Part shown: piece by piece, positions 3,340-24,771 of the stretch
How positions within the stretch are numbered: position 1 is the first letter of the stretch
Layout: every line of letters starts with the position of its first letter
Assembly: GCA_028873845.1 (NCBI GenBank)
Contig: JAPPNO010000021.1
Span: 1-45,978 of the forward strand
Direction of reading: 5' to 3'
Origin: Gemmatimonadota bacterium
GTDB lineage: Bacteria > Gemmatimonadota > Gemmatimonadetes > Longimicrobiales > Gaopeijiaceae
DNA length: 45,978 nt
The notes under the pieces: model-generated
Told to the model about the DNA's origin: nothing
Databases searched by the model: none
The model's input: the letters and a program-made list of their open reading frames with translations, nothing else
Made by a program: the position numbers and the translations under genes

Positions 3340-4494
3340 ATGGCGAAGATTCTGGTCGTTGACGACGAACCCGATCTGGAACTCCTCCTCCGTCAGAAGT
3401 TTCGGCGGAAGGTCCGAAAGGGAGAGCTGACCCTGGTCTTCGCCCAGAACGGGGTCGAGGCCCTGGAGCAGCTCAAGGTGCATCACGATGTCGACATGGT
3501 GTTGTCGGACATCAACATGCCCCAGATGGACGGCCTCACCCTGCTTCACCAGCTCAACCAGCTGAACTACGATCTGAGGGCGGTGATCGTAACCGCCTAC
3601 GGGGACATGAAGAACATCCGCACCGCCATGAACCGGGGTGCCTTCGACTTCGTCACCAAGCCGCTGGACTTCAAGGATCTGGAGACCACGATCTCCAAGA
3701 CGCTGGCCCACCTGGCGGTCATGCGGGAGGCGCTCCGCTCCCGCGACGAACTGGTGGCGCTGCGGCAGGAGCTCGGGGTCGCGGCCCGCATGCAGGAGTC
3801 GATCCTGCCCACCAGCTTCCCGGAAGACTCCCGTTACGAGATCCACGCGTGGATGACCCCGGCCAAGGAGGTGGGCGGTGATTTCTACGATTTCTTCAAG
3901 CTCGAGGACGGGCGCATCGGCATCGTCATGGCGGACGTGTCGGGCAAGGGGGTGCCGGCGGCGCTCTTCATGATGGTGAGCCGCACGCTGATGAAGGGGA
4001 CCGCCATCGGCGAGAACGATCCGGCGAAGTGCCTGGAGGAAGTGAACCAGCTGCTGGTGGAATCGAACGAGCAGTCCATGTTCGTGACCGTGTTCTACGG
4101 CAGTTTCGATCCGGCCACCGGCATCCTGGAATACGCGAACGCGGGACACAACCTGCCCTACGTCGTCAAGGCGAACGGCGACGTACACCCCATCGAGTGC
4201 GACTCGGGCCTGGTCCTGGCCGTCATGCCAGGTTTCGAATTCCCGGGCGGATCCATCCGGATGGATCCCGGGGACGTGGTGTTCTTCTACACGGACGGCA
4301 TCACCGAGGCCATGGACGAGGAAGGGGTCGAGTTCGGAGACGACGAACTGGCCGCGGTTCTCGAAGAGGTGGCGGGTTCCAGCGCGGCGACCTTCAACCG
4401 AAAGGCGGTGGAGGCGGTCCAGGAGCACGCGGGCGAGGCCGCCCAGTCCGACGACATCACCTGTCTGACGCTGAAATACCTGAGGGAATCGTAA
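3340..4494 (+). CDS. Response regulator with PP2C (SpoIIE/RsbU-type) phosphatase output
   Basis: Two-domain cytoplasmic protein of 384 residues. Residues 1-120 form a receiver: acidic pair Asp8-Asp9, phospho-acceptor Asp57 in VLSDINMPQMDG, Thr85 and Lys107. A helical linker (about 122-155) joins a PP2C-type phosphatase with metal-ligand motifs GGDFYDF (Asp181), MADVSGKG (Asp199) and SDDITCL (Asp371-Asp372). Such proteins dephosphorylate phospho-STAS antagonists when the receiver is phosphorylated, as in HsbR/CrsR-like pathways. Start ATG 3340 begins directly with the first receiver strand. It heads a tight operon with a periplasmic binding protein and a histidine kinase, and lies divergent to a STAS/RsbW pair, its likely substrate module. 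Confidence 0.93.
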   Translation: MAKILVVDDEPDLELLLRQKFRRKVRKGELTLVFAQNGVEALEQLKVHHDVDMVLSDINMPQMDGLTLLHQLNQLNYDLRAVIVTAYGDMKNIRTAMNRGAFDFVTKPLDFKDLETTISKTLAHLAVMREALRSRDELVALRQELGVAARMQESILPTSFPEDSRYEIHAWMTPAKEVGGDFYDFFKLEDGRIGIVMADVSGKGVPAALFMMVSRTLMKGTAIGENDPAKCLEEVNQLLVESNEQSMFVTVFYGSFDPATGILEYANAGHNLPYVVKANGDVHPIECDSGLVLAVMPGFEFPGGSIRMDPGDVVFFYTDGITEAMDEEGVEFGDDELAAVLEEVAGSSAATFNRKAVEAVQEHAGEAAQSDDITCLTLKYLRES

Positions 4495-5706
4495 ATGAGG
4501 GTGTCCCCGGTGGGGGCGGGTTTCCGGATCGTCATGGTGGCGGCGGGGGCCTGTGCGGTGTCGGGGACGGGGGTGCGGGGCCAGGAGGCGGGGTCGGGGT
4601 CGGGTGGAGACGGGGCATCCGCCGATTCGATCGTGTTCGGGCAGTCCGCGGCGTTCAGCGGGTTTGCGGTCGACTTGGGCAGCAACATGCACCTGGGCGT
4701 CCTCGCCGCCTTCGAAGAGGCCAACCGGACCGGGGGAATCCACGGCCGTGTGCTGCGTCTCATCACAGAGGACGACCGGTACGAAGGCGAGCTCGCGATT
4801 GCGAACACGAGAAAGCTCATCGCCGACGGTGTGTTTGCGCTGATCGGCGCGGTCGGTACGCCGACTTCCAGGGTCGCGTGGGGGATCGCCAGCGACGCCC
4901 GGGTGCCCTATATCGGCGCCTTCACCGGCGCGGGGCTCCTGAGGGGCGCGGACCAGCCCTGGGTGGTCAATCTGCGGGCGTCCTACATCCAGGAAACCGA
5001 GGAGATGGTGGCGCGGCTCACCGAGGACCTCGGGTTCAGCAGGATCGCGATCTTCTATCAGGATGACAGCTATGGACACGCCGGCCTGACCGGCGTGCGC
5101 CAGGCCCTGGACAAGCGCGATCTGCCCCTGGTCGGGCAGGGCACCTACGTCCGCAATACAGCGGCGGTCAAGCGGGCCCTGCTGGACATCCGCGAGAGCG
5201 ACCCCGAGGCGATCATCACCATAGGGGCATACCGGGCGGCCGCCCAGTTCATCCTGTGGGCCAAAAAGCTCGGCATGCGGGCCATCCACCTGAATGTCTC
5301 CTTCGTCGGAAGCAACAGCCTGCTGGACGAACTCGGCGGCGACGGCGACGGCGTCGTGGTGACCCAGGTGGTGCCCTTCCCGCGCGACACGGAACTTCCC
5401 GTGGTGAGGGACTACCAGGCCGCGATCCGGCAGGTCGATGCATCCGCCCAGCCCGGCTTCGTTTCCCTGGAGGGGTACCTGGCCGGCCGGCTGGTGGTCG
5501 AGGCCTTGCGGGCATCGTCGGAACCGGGAGGTCCACCGCCCACCCGGGAGGCGTTCCTGCAATGGCTTGTGGATGTCGGCCCCTATGACCTCGGAGGGTT
5601 CGAGATCGAGTATGGACCCGGGGACAACCAGGGCTCGGACAGGGTGTTTCTGACCGAGATCCGGCAGGGGCGGTTCGTTCCCATAACCGAGTTGCGGCGG
5701 CGATGA
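4495..5706 (+). CDS. Periplasmic ligand-binding protein (branched-chain amino acid/amide type)
   Basis: The 403-residue product has an N-terminal secretion signal (hydrophobic segment about 10-28) followed by a type I periplasmic binding fold of the Peripla_BP_6 group: IVFGQSAAFSG near residue 46, a first-lobe alpha/beta pattern, and a second lobe around IAIFYQDDSYG. Proteins of this family bind amino acids, amides or related small molecules. The ATG follows the phosphatase stop without a gap, and the 3' end overlaps the histidine kinase start by 4 bp. No permease or ATPase genes accompany it, so it probably serves as the ligand-sensing partner of the kinase, as TorT does for TorS. The ligand cannot be read from sequence. 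Confidence 0.88.
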   Translation: MRVSPVGAGFRIVMVAAGACAVSGTGVRGQEAGSGSGGDGASADSIVFGQSAAFSGFAVDLGSNMHLGVLAAFEEANRTGGIHGRVLRLITEDDRYEGELAIANTRKLIADGVFALIGAVGTPTSRVAWGIASDARVPYIGAFTGAGLLRGADQPWVVNLRASYIQETEEMVARLTEDLGFSRIAIFYQDDSYGHAGLTGVRQALDKRDLPLVGQGTYVRNTAAVKRALLDIRESDPEAIITIGAYRAAAQFILWAKKLGMRAIHLNVSFVGSNSLLDELGGDGDGVVVTQVVPFPRDTELPVVRDYQAAIRQVDASAQPGFVSLEGYLAGRLVVEALRASSEPGGPPPTREAFLQWLVDVGPYDLGGFEIEYGPGDNQGSDRVFLTEIRQGRFVPITELRRR

Positions 5707-21524: not shown

Positions 21525-21717
21525 CCCGCTTGCAGTCCAGGTAGCCGGTTGCGCGGGATCGACGCGATGCCGCCTCGGGGAGCGTCCTGCCCTTCCTCGC
21601 CGCCGGCTCGCTCCGGAGATGCGCAACGGATTCGGGCGCCGTACCTTGTGGTCGTCCGCCCTACGTGACCCGGCCAGTCCGGGGACCGGGAGTGCCAATG
21701 AACAGTCCGAGGGTCGA

Positions 21718-22908
21718 TTGACACCTTTTCTTCCATTCCCAACGCGGCACCTGCAGCCGCTCCGGAGAGTGCCGTCTCACGCAATGATCGCGGCGGGCAT
21801 CCCGATGGGGATGTTGTCGCTTGCGGCTCCCCTGGCCGCCCAGCTCCAGCCGGGCAGCGTCGGCGCCGAGCTGGCCGACGCCTCCGGCGAGGCGATCTAC
21901 GCGGCGTCGTGCGCGAACTGCCACGGGCTCGACGGGACCGGCCTCGCCCCCTCGCTGGTCGCCTTCGAGGAGGAACTGCCCGATTTCTCGGACTGCGATT
22001 TCGCCGCCCGCGAACCCGACGCCGACTGGATCGCCGTGGCCCACGAAGGCGGTCCGGTCCGCGGGTTCAGCGAAATGATGCCGGCGTTCCGGGGCGCGCT
22101 CACCGAGGAGCAGCTCGGCCGCGTGATGGGTTACATCCGCACCCTGTGCACCGACCCGAACTGGCCGCGGGGCGAACTCAACCTGCCTCGGGCGCTGCTC
22201 ACCGAGAAGGCCTACCCCGAGGACGAGTGGGTGGCGGAGGTCGGTGTGGACCTCGAGGAGGGGGGCGGGGTTGTGGGCACGTACGTGTGGGAACAGCGCT
22301 TCGGGCCGCGCAGCCAGTTCGAAGTGGCGATCCCGTACGGTTGGCGGAGGGAGAGGGGTGGGGAGGAGGGCGGCGGCCACGGGATCGGGGACCTGGTACT
22401 GGCGGTCAAGCATGCGCTGTACCACGACCTCGCCGCGGGCACCATCGTCTCGGTGATGGGCGAGGTGATTCTCCCCACGGGTGATCACAAGGCGGGGCTG
22501 GGCGCCCCGGGCGGCGCGTTGGAGGCCTTCCTCTCGATCGGCCGGATCCTCCCCTCCGACGCCTTCCTGCAGGCCCAGGCCGGCGCGGCGATGCCCCTGT
22601 ACGACGACGCGGCGGGGGAAGGGTTCGGGCGCATCCTGCTTGGCAGGACCTGGACCGAGGGGAAGTGGGGGCGCGCCTGGTCCCCGATGCTGGAAGTGCA
22701 GGCCAAACGCGACCTTGAAGCAGGAGCCGGGACGAACATCGACCTGGTGCCCCAGATTCAGGTATCCCTCAACACCCGCCAACACGTGCTGGTCAACGTC
22801 GGGGTTCTCGTCCCGGCCGGACGGGAAGCCGGCGAACGTCCTCCCATTCGCCTTCTGGCCTATCTCCTCCTCGACTGGTTCGACGGCGGATTCTTCGAGG
22901 GATGGTGA
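21718..22908 (+). CDS. Monoheme c-type cytochrome fused to an outer-membrane beta-barrel-like domain
   Basis: Exported protein. After a signal sequence (hydrophobic MIAAGIPMGMLSLAAPLAA), a cytochrome c domain covers roughly 70 residues with the heme motif CANCH and a downstream methionine-rich FSEMMPAFRG that can supply the sixth ligand. The remaining 250 or so residues alternate hydrophobic and polar positions in repeated strands (EVAIPYGW, GEVILPTGDH, IQVSLNTRQHVLVNVGVL) and end in an aromatic Trp, like outer-membrane barrels of the phenol-degradation MetA/transporter type. The start is uncertain: TTG 21718 has a GAGGG site and gives a basic n-region; ATG 21784 gives a shorter signal with no positive charge. 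The 3' end overlaps the pentaheme gene by 7 bp. The barrel call is inference. Confidence 0.75.
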   Translation: MTPFLPFPTRHLQPLRRVPSHAMIAAGIPMGMLSLAAPLAAQLQPGSVGAELADASGEAIYAASCANCHGLDGTGLAPSLVAFEEELPDFSDCDFAAREPDADWIAVAHEGGPVRGFSEMMPAFRGALTEEQLGRVMGYIRTLCTDPNWPRGELNLPRALLTEKAYPEDEWVAEVGVDLEEGGGVVGTYVWEQRFGPRSQFEVAIPYGWRRERGGEEGGGHGIGDLVLAVKHALYHDLAAGTIVSVMGEVILPTGDHKAGLGAPGGALEAFLSIGRILPSDAFLQAQAGAAMPLYDDAAGEGFGRILLGRTWTEGKWGRAWSPMLEVQAKRDLEAGAGTNIDLVPQIQVSLNTRQHVLVNVGVLVPAGREAGERPPIRLLAYLLLDWFDGGFFEGW

Positions 22909-24629
22909 TCGTGGCTCGCTCCCGCGCCCCGATCGCCGGGCTCGTTGCCGCGTGCGCGCTTGCGGGCAGCCTGCTGATCGCAACGTGCGGCCCGGTGCTC
23001 GACGCACCACGCCCCGGCGCGGCAGGGTCCGGCCTCGCTTCACCCGGCCCCTCCCCGCCCGCACGGATGACTGCCCCGCCCTCACCCGCCGACAACTTCC
23101 ACACCGCCGACCGCTGCATCGCCTGCCACAAGGGTGTCTCCGCCCGGGACGGCACCGATGTCTCGATCGGCTTCGACTGGCGCGCCTCGATGATGGCCAA
23201 CAGCGCCCGCGATCCGTACTTCCAGGCCGCCGTGCGGCGCGAGATCATGGACCATCCCGGGGCGGCTTCCGAGATCGAAGCGGAGTGCTCGCGGTGCCAC
23301 ATGCCGATGGCCAGCGTGGCGGCCATGCAGGCGGGGCAGGGGGGCGGCGTCTTCGTCAACCTCCCGATCGGCGACGCCGAGGGACCCTGGGCGGACCTGG
23401 CGGCCGACGGCGTCTCCTGCTCGTTGTGCCACCAGATCCGGCCGGACGGGCTGGGCCGCGAGGAGACCTTCACGGCCCGCTTCAGCGTCTCACCCGAGAC
23501 GCCGGCCGACGGCCGTCCCGTCTTCGGCCCGTTCGAGCCCGACGAGGGCGGCTCCGGGATCATGCATTCGGCCACCGGGTTCCGACCCGCGCTCGGAGAG
23601 CACGTCACCTCCTCCGGCCTGTGCGCCTCCTGCCACACGGTCATCACGCACGCCGTGGGACCCGACGGGCCCGGCCCCGCGTTTCCCGAACAGTCCCCCT
23701 TCCTCGAGTGGCAGGCGAGCATCTACGCGGACGGCGCCGAGCGCGAGCAGAGCTGCCAGGACTGCCACATGCCCGAGGTCGGCGGTGATGTCCCCGTCAC
23801 GCGGGTCCTGGGCCGCGCCCGTCCCGAGGTCTCGCGGCACGTGTTTCGCGGCGGCAACTTCTTCATGCTGCGGATGCTGAACCGGTACCGCGACGAACTC
23901 GGTGTGACCGCGCTGCCCCAGGAGATGGAGCTCGCGGCCGGCCGCACCGCCGACCACCTCCGCACCGCCACCGCCACCGTCGAGATCGGCGGCGTGGGGA
24001 TCGGCGGGGAACGGCTCGAGGCCACCGTGACCGTGCGCAACCTCGCCGGGCACAAATTTCCCACCGCCTACCCTTCGCGCCGGGCATGGCTGCGGTTCGC
24101 CGTTACGGACACCTGGGGAGAGCGGGTGTTCGAATCGGGGGCCTTCTCACCGGACGGCCGCGTCATCGGCGACAACCACGACGCGGACGGCTCAAGCTAC
24201 GAACCGCACTACACCGTGATCACGTCGCCGGATCAGGTGCAGGTCTACCAGGCCGTCATGGCGGACGGGGGAGGGGCGGTCACAACCGGTCTCATGTCGG
24301 CGCACGAGTGGGTCAAGGACAACCGCATTCTCCCCGAGGGCTTCGATCCCGCGCGCGCCGACGCACGCGTGCGGTCCGTCGGCATCGCGGCGGGCGATCC
24401 CGACTTCGAGGCCGGCTCCGACCGCGTGCACTACACGGTCCCGATCGACCCGGGCGACGGCCCCTTCACGCTGGAGGCCGAACTCTGGTTCCAGCCGGTC
24501 GGGTACCGCTGGGCCGAGAACCTGGCGGCGTACGACGCGGCCGAGACCCGGCGTTTCCTGCGCTACTACCGGGAGATGGCCCACGCTTCGGCGATCCGGG
24601 TGGCGCGGGACTCCGCGGAGGTGCGTTAG
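22902..24629 (+). CDS. Pentaheme c-type cytochrome, exported
   Basis: A 575-residue secreted protein with an N-terminal hydrophobic signal (about 8-28) ending at Cys29; the preceding LIAT is a poor lipobox, so lipidation is uncertain. Five CXXCH heme sites are at residues 72-76, 129-133, 173-177, 241-245 and 285-289. The spacing and the CHMP motifs after two of them resemble cytochrome c554-like multiheme electron carriers. From about 340 onward the protein is heme-free and beta-rich, with [17 protein letters not shown] the most conserved-looking segment. It overlaps the cytochrome-barrel gene and is probably its electron-transfer partner in the periplasm or at the outer membrane. The redox substrate is unknown. 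Confidence 0.88.
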
Positions 24630-24742: not shown

Positions 24743-24771
24743 TTGACACCCGTCAGCGCTATGGATATCAT
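24743..24771 (+). promoter_or_regulatory. Sigma-70-type promoter for rplM-rpsI-rpsB
   Basis: TTGACA (24743-24748) is a perfect -35 box, and TATCAT (24766-24771) lies exactly 17 bp downstream, one mismatch from the -10 consensus. Initiation near 24778 would give a leader of about 70 nt before rplM. The match and its location at the head of a ribosomal protein operon make this the clearest promoter in the window. Confidence 0.75.

Follow-up and report, generated by a model that had tools for sequence, protein, structure and literature searches.

A putative outer-membrane redox module built from a heme-fused 12-stranded barrel and an exchangeable soluble partner in Gemmatimonadota and other phyla

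In a 45,978-nucleotide stretch of Gemmatimonadota DNA (contig JAPPNO010000021.1; hereafter the window), we identified two adjacent genes, here termed A and B, that form a genuine conserved pair. A joins a monoheme cytochrome c domain to a 12-stranded outer-membrane barrel, while B is an exported pentaheme cytochrome. We propose, with moderate confidence, that the pair constitutes a two-gene outer-membrane redox module, in which a heme-docked channel relays electrons between a periplasmic carrier and a diffusible substrate. No paper on the pair was found in the literature searched, which covered few subscription journals and preprints, and the pair is apparently undescribed.

Gene A (21718–22908, plus strand, 396 aa) starts with the TTG codon assigned in the initial annotation: a Shine-Dalgarno-like GAGGG precedes it (21709–21713, plus strand), and in relatives Glu-Val/Gly-Arg codons are followed by GTG or TTG at the same position, as in L031, L032 and L056. 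Its putative signal peptide (21718–21840, plus strand), read from a basic n-region and a hydrophobic core, is probably cut after LAA and before QLQPG. The class I cytochrome c domain that follows (21895–22149, plus strand) scores above the cut-offs of the Pfam profiles Cytochrome_CBB3 (PF13442; 40.9 bits, cut-off 27) and Cytochrom_C (PF00034; 35.6 bits, cut-off 21.3), and is helical in the predicted structure. It holds the sole CXXCH of A, CANCH (21910–21924, plus strand), whose residues C21, C24 and H25 are kept in at least 90% of the relatives in an alignment of 49. The Met of MMPAF (M77; 22078–22080, plus strand) is invariant in these 49 sequences and is the putative axial ligand of the heme. 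CXXCH motif, helical fold and invariant M77 are those of a class I cytochrome c, ligation by M77 being the presumed element.

The C-terminal part of A (22225–22905, plus strand), which ends on Trp, matches the Phenol_MetA_deg barrel profile (PF13557; 24.1 bits, cut-off 22). Structure prediction from an alignment of 49 relatives yielded a model of A (mean pLDDT 91.9, pTM 0.88) in which eight short helical segments precede 12 long strands. Among solved structures, the closest fold is that of FapF (5o65; Z 21.3, rmsd 2.5, 221 residues), and the COG4313 channel 4rl8 aligns with Z 20.8 and rmsd 2.8 over 219 residues. COG4313/Phenol_MetA_deg channels and FapF are thus, like A, 12-strand barrels (Z 20.8–21.3 over ~220 residues), yet 4rl8 and FapF lack the heme domain. 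The fusion of a heme domain to an outer-membrane barrel, as first read from the DNA, is therefore borne out, with cytochrome c profiles above cut-off and a barrel in one protein; where a barrel of 8–14 strands had been sought, the model gives 12, with Z of ~21 to two solved outer-membrane channels, and the contrary outcome, a model without a membrane barrel, did not occur.

Heme domain and barrel are joined by a hinge, WPRGELNLPRxLxTEKAYPED (22150–22224, plus strand), with a mean column identity of 0.80, compared to 0.68 for the heme domain and 0.56 for the barrel. Helices plug the barrel of FapF, and this hinge could do so in A, for which a channel function is presumed. Conserved Glu, Arg and Gln residues line one face of the strands. 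On these polar faces, E148, R150 and E282 are invariant, and E158, K187, E205, E225 and R261 are kept at about 90% or more; as the "inward" face was taken to be the more polar one, its polarity is partly given by construction, while its conservation is not. Two heme-less barrel relatives have E148 in common with A and lack R150, E158, E205 and E225. Furthermore, a heme-less barrel of the same family (L190:3839–4657) begins at A's hinge motif (EEAYNQEP for EKAYPEDE), and this start suggests that a heme domain was placed in front of a pre-existing barrel during the origin of A.

An even number of strands places both ends of a barrel in the periplasm. For 12 strands, standard geometry gives a backbone diameter of ~23 Å and a lumen well below this value, and a class I cytochrome c domain is ~30 Å wide. 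Because the ~90-residue domain of A is too large for the 12-strand lumen and both barrel ends are periplasmic, the heme of A would lie under the barrel, on the periplasmic side. A single heme at this place would, in turn, not allow electrons to tunnel across the membrane.

Gene B (22902–24629, plus strand) encodes 575 aa from its first ATG at 22902 and contains five heme motifs on the plus strand, CIACH (23115–23129), CSRCH (23286–23300), CSLCH (23418–23432), CASCH (23622–23636) and CQDCH (23754–23768). Translation from this ATG gives a 7-nt overlap with the end of A. In most close relatives, however, the start is at codon 4 of the frame, which here is GTG 22911, 2 nt past the A stop; the first usable start of B in relatives lies mostly 6 nt before the end of A. 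Hence, the overlap reported initially stands if ATG 22902 is used, whereas with GTG 22911 the two genes may abut instead.

The model of B (mean pLDDT 86.4, alignment of 41 relatives) has one strong structural match, the penta-heme cytochrome c552 of Thermochromatium tepidum (5ze8; Foldseek E 3.5e-16), with Z 25.6, rmsd 2.9 and 21% identity over 351 residues, although by sequence the match is significant only over a ~50-residue stretch. Like 5ze8, B combines five hemes with a C-terminal beta domain; this domain (23958–24626, plus strand), delineated from model, structure match and conservation, is Ig-like and carries the invariant H355 and H407, candidate distal heme ligands. T. tepidum c552 and Geobacter ExtKL have been grouped by fold into a single family, for which a link to an archaeal cytochrome nanowire has been proposed (PMC11976967). 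B shares with this c552/ExtKL family the five CXXCH motifs and the common fold with its C-terminal Ig-like domain, but falls below the threshold for ExtKL proper (NF040886; 17.6 bits, curated cut-off 250). Together with H205 and H284, the two His residues of the Ig-like domain make four invariant His outside CXXCH, and there are invariant Met candidates as well, because of which most or all hemes of B are probably six-coordinate; this would fit electron transfer more than catalysis. In most relatives, B carries an ordinary export signal, and a lipobox, judged by eye, is not consistent. The B of the window has a weak lipobox-like IATC, and in some species B could be attached to, or exported past, the outer membrane. 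With five CXXCH, export signals and the modeled Ig-like domain, the earlier description of an exported five-heme partner with a large beta domain is upheld. In a distant relative of B of ~900 aa (L192:3568–6333, minus strand), the pentaheme part is preceded by an N-terminal region that resembles cytochrome P460 below threshold and contains a CXXCH of its own; comparable long frames are present in G069, G079 and G084.

A single scan of 84,980 species genomes returned 68 A loci, and at 59 of them A is immediately followed by B on the same strand. These loci belong to at least six phyla (Gemmatimonadota, Acidobacteriota with the Aminicenantes, Rhodothermota and Balneolota, Pseudomonadota, Myxococcota and Planctomycetota). 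Across phyla, relatives of A and B are roughly 32–88% identical, and complete copies have, without exception, one heme motif in A and five in B. Such retention of one plus five hemes at this divergence places the pair far beyond chance. The initial annotation had called for a survey within Gemmatimonadota and had regarded separately encoded relatives as evidence against a coupled system; carried beyond this phylum, the survey did not give this outcome. Among 98 related genomes, all 34 strong matches of B adjoin A, and two genomes have A without B. The distances of A and B correlate closely (Mantel r 0.89; none of 2000 permutations as high), and the two genes are co-inherited.

In wider samples, for which the threshold of 1e-25 for A also counts in distant members, A occurs in 40 of 200 Gemmatimonadota genomes and, in the Acidobacteriota sample, in 29 of 247. 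Pseudomonadota were rejected as the main host group, the sample of 349 genomes having matched in the centre genome only, and spread by plasmid was rejected likewise, with no match in 72,556 plasmids. The neighbors of the 68 A loci include no common third gene, and the flanks are otherwise unrelated from locus to locus; the pair is therefore a free-standing cassette, and a wider operon that would name a substrate was rejected. In the window, a strong sigma-70-like promoter (24743–24771, plus strand; TTGACA-17-TATCAT, 11/12) ahead of a ribosomal protein L13-like gene sets the pair apart from the downstream ribosomal operon.

Where B is missing, A is in many cases followed directly by a gene for a cupredoxin-like protein with a carboxypeptidase-regulatory domain (L172, L173, L174, L186, L188, L179, L182 and L176), and at L186 A is flanked by two copies of the cupredoxin-like gene. 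The profile of this partner matches copper nitrite reductase (E 7.7e-5), blue copper protein (E 0.0044) and, more weakly, amicyanin, and the protein has an invariant His145 and the motif C-x2-H-x-W-M. Judged by these sequence features, the replacement partner of A is a blue-copper-type protein. On the A tree, 3 changes suffice for the label B, as opposed to a mean of 23.2 after shuffling; the copper label takes 4, in two separated groups. Since this is a quick tree with several long branches, how often partners were exchanged is uncertain. In the genomes G193 and G212 the two arrangements coexist: B accompanies a core A at L114 and L121, and the copper protein goes with a distant A at L135 and L188. 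At a further locus, L080, an A copy without B is followed, as noted by eye, by a gene resembling GMC-type flavin oxidoreductases (4214–5269). As the copper protein substitutes for B, A appears to be the fixed part and the soluble partner exchangeable. Such a substitution is easier to reconcile with a soluble carrier of the periplasm than with a terminal cytochrome outside the cell.

In the module that we propose, A would be a 12-stranded outer-membrane channel and its class I heme domain, placed in the periplasm on grounds of topology and size, would be held by the conserved hinge. B would act as a soluble exported pentaheme carrier that swaps electrons with the heme of A, as linkage and co-inheritance suggest, and blue copper would stand in for it in some lineages. 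The channel would admit a small soluble donor or acceptor, which might react at the heme of A or at B just under the pore, and electrons would then pass between this substrate and the periplasmic carrier chain. Our guess, from the conserved acidic residues on the polar strand faces, is that the substrate may be a cation such as Fe(II), Cu or Mn.

Alternatively, A might be merely a cytochrome c tethered to the outer membrane, through which B or blue copper supplies a terminal oxidase or peroxidase with electrons, with a channel that carries nothing. We consider this rather unlikely. The heme domain is of the His/Met-type class I and related to cbb3 CcoP and cytochrome c6, and partner exchange among soluble carriers agrees with such a role; however, a plain lipid anchor would do, and the charged residues of the polar faces are kept in the fused family, whereas several are absent from the two heme-less relatives, which suggests a working channel.

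The initial annotation had instead seen in the pair the parts of a porin-cytochrome conduit, among them a heme relay, and a possible route for electrons across the outer membrane. In such a direct conduit, A and B together would exchange electrons with extracellular solids or electrodes. The right kinds of parts are indeed present, and as in MtrCAB and other porin-cytochrome complexes a barrel and a multiheme cytochrome share one operon. Moreover, the fold family of B includes ExtKL, and in Geobacter the cluster extHIJKL alone sustains metal reduction at 24–76% of the wild-type level (PMC6148476); a relationship between the T. tepidum protein and archaeal nanowire subunits has been proposed (PMC11976967). 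Against this stand the one heme of A, whose domain is too wide for the lumen, and the lack of a consistent lipobox in B, such that the relay across the membrane is not sustained. The barrel of the pair is small, with the heme fused to it, and the cluster has neither a large MtrB/PioB barrel nor decaheme proteins. No extracellular heme protein or lipoprotein partner is found at the loci, and within ~5 kb of the pair there is no other cytochrome with at least three heme motifs. Of 10 genomes carrying the A family, 9 lack the MtrB/PioB barrel (PF11854), and the MtrC-domain profile PF22113 gave only sub-threshold matches, in the window's own genome (G000) as in nearly all others. One gammaproteobacterial carrier of the pair does have a full MtrB/PioB barrel gene (G099:C3:434198–436297). 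B is also replaceable by a blue-copper protein, and we regard a direct conduit as distinctly unlikely.

That the barrel exports B or another protein in the manner of FapF, with B making extracellular filaments, is highly improbable: FapF is the closest fold of the A barrel (Z 21.3) and the fold family of B has been linked to a nanowire subunit (PMC11976967), but a folded, heme-loaded 60-kDa protein cannot traverse a pore of 12 strands, the match to the COG4313 channel 4rl8 is equally good (Z 20.8), and blue-copper partners substitute for B.

Among known systems, the mode of action of our proposed module would, as the best reading by analogy, be most like that of Cyc2-rusticyanin or ExtI-ExtKL, with a different barrel. 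Cyc2, a monoheme cytochrome-porin of iron oxidizers, has, like A, an N-terminal domain with one CXXCH fused to an outer-membrane barrel, and with rusticyanin it has a soluble periplasmic carrier as partner (PMC10654088), as does A, for which this is blue copper in some lineages. Yet the Cyc2 barrel has 16 strands and is of the OprO/OprP type (PMC8406198), whereas that of A has 12 and is of the COG4313/FapF type; A furthermore differs by its full class I cytochrome c domain, a pentaheme protein as main partner and the lack of an iron-oxidation operon. In the Geobacter ExtI-ExtKL system (extHIJKL), an outer-membrane channel gene is clustered with a pentaheme cytochrome of the fold family of B (PMC6148476, PMC5877670); ExtKL is periplasmic, and the extHIJKL cluster has no outer-membrane cytochrome (PMC6148476). 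Unlike the A-B pair, this system has a heme-less porin of 21 strands (ExtI), a predicted selenoprotein (ExtKL) and a large operon. Tentatively, and with less confidence than the module itself, we suggest that a 12-strand channel, a docked heme, an exchangeable soluble partner and a diffusible substrate could define a new outer-membrane redox class in Gemmatimonadota, Acidobacteriota and other phyla, apart from Cyc2 and porin-cytochrome complexes.

Few links are known between periplasmic electron carriers and chemistry at or beyond the outer membrane, and a compact heme-barrel cassette found across phyla would add one. The pair is carried by groups frequently found in soils, sediments and sponges, of which there are few cultures. 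Because at least one named strain, Rhodohalobacter sulfatireducens WB101 (L065), carries it, the pair is testable, and the natural swap of pentaheme cytochrome and blue copper offers a clean comparison of partners.
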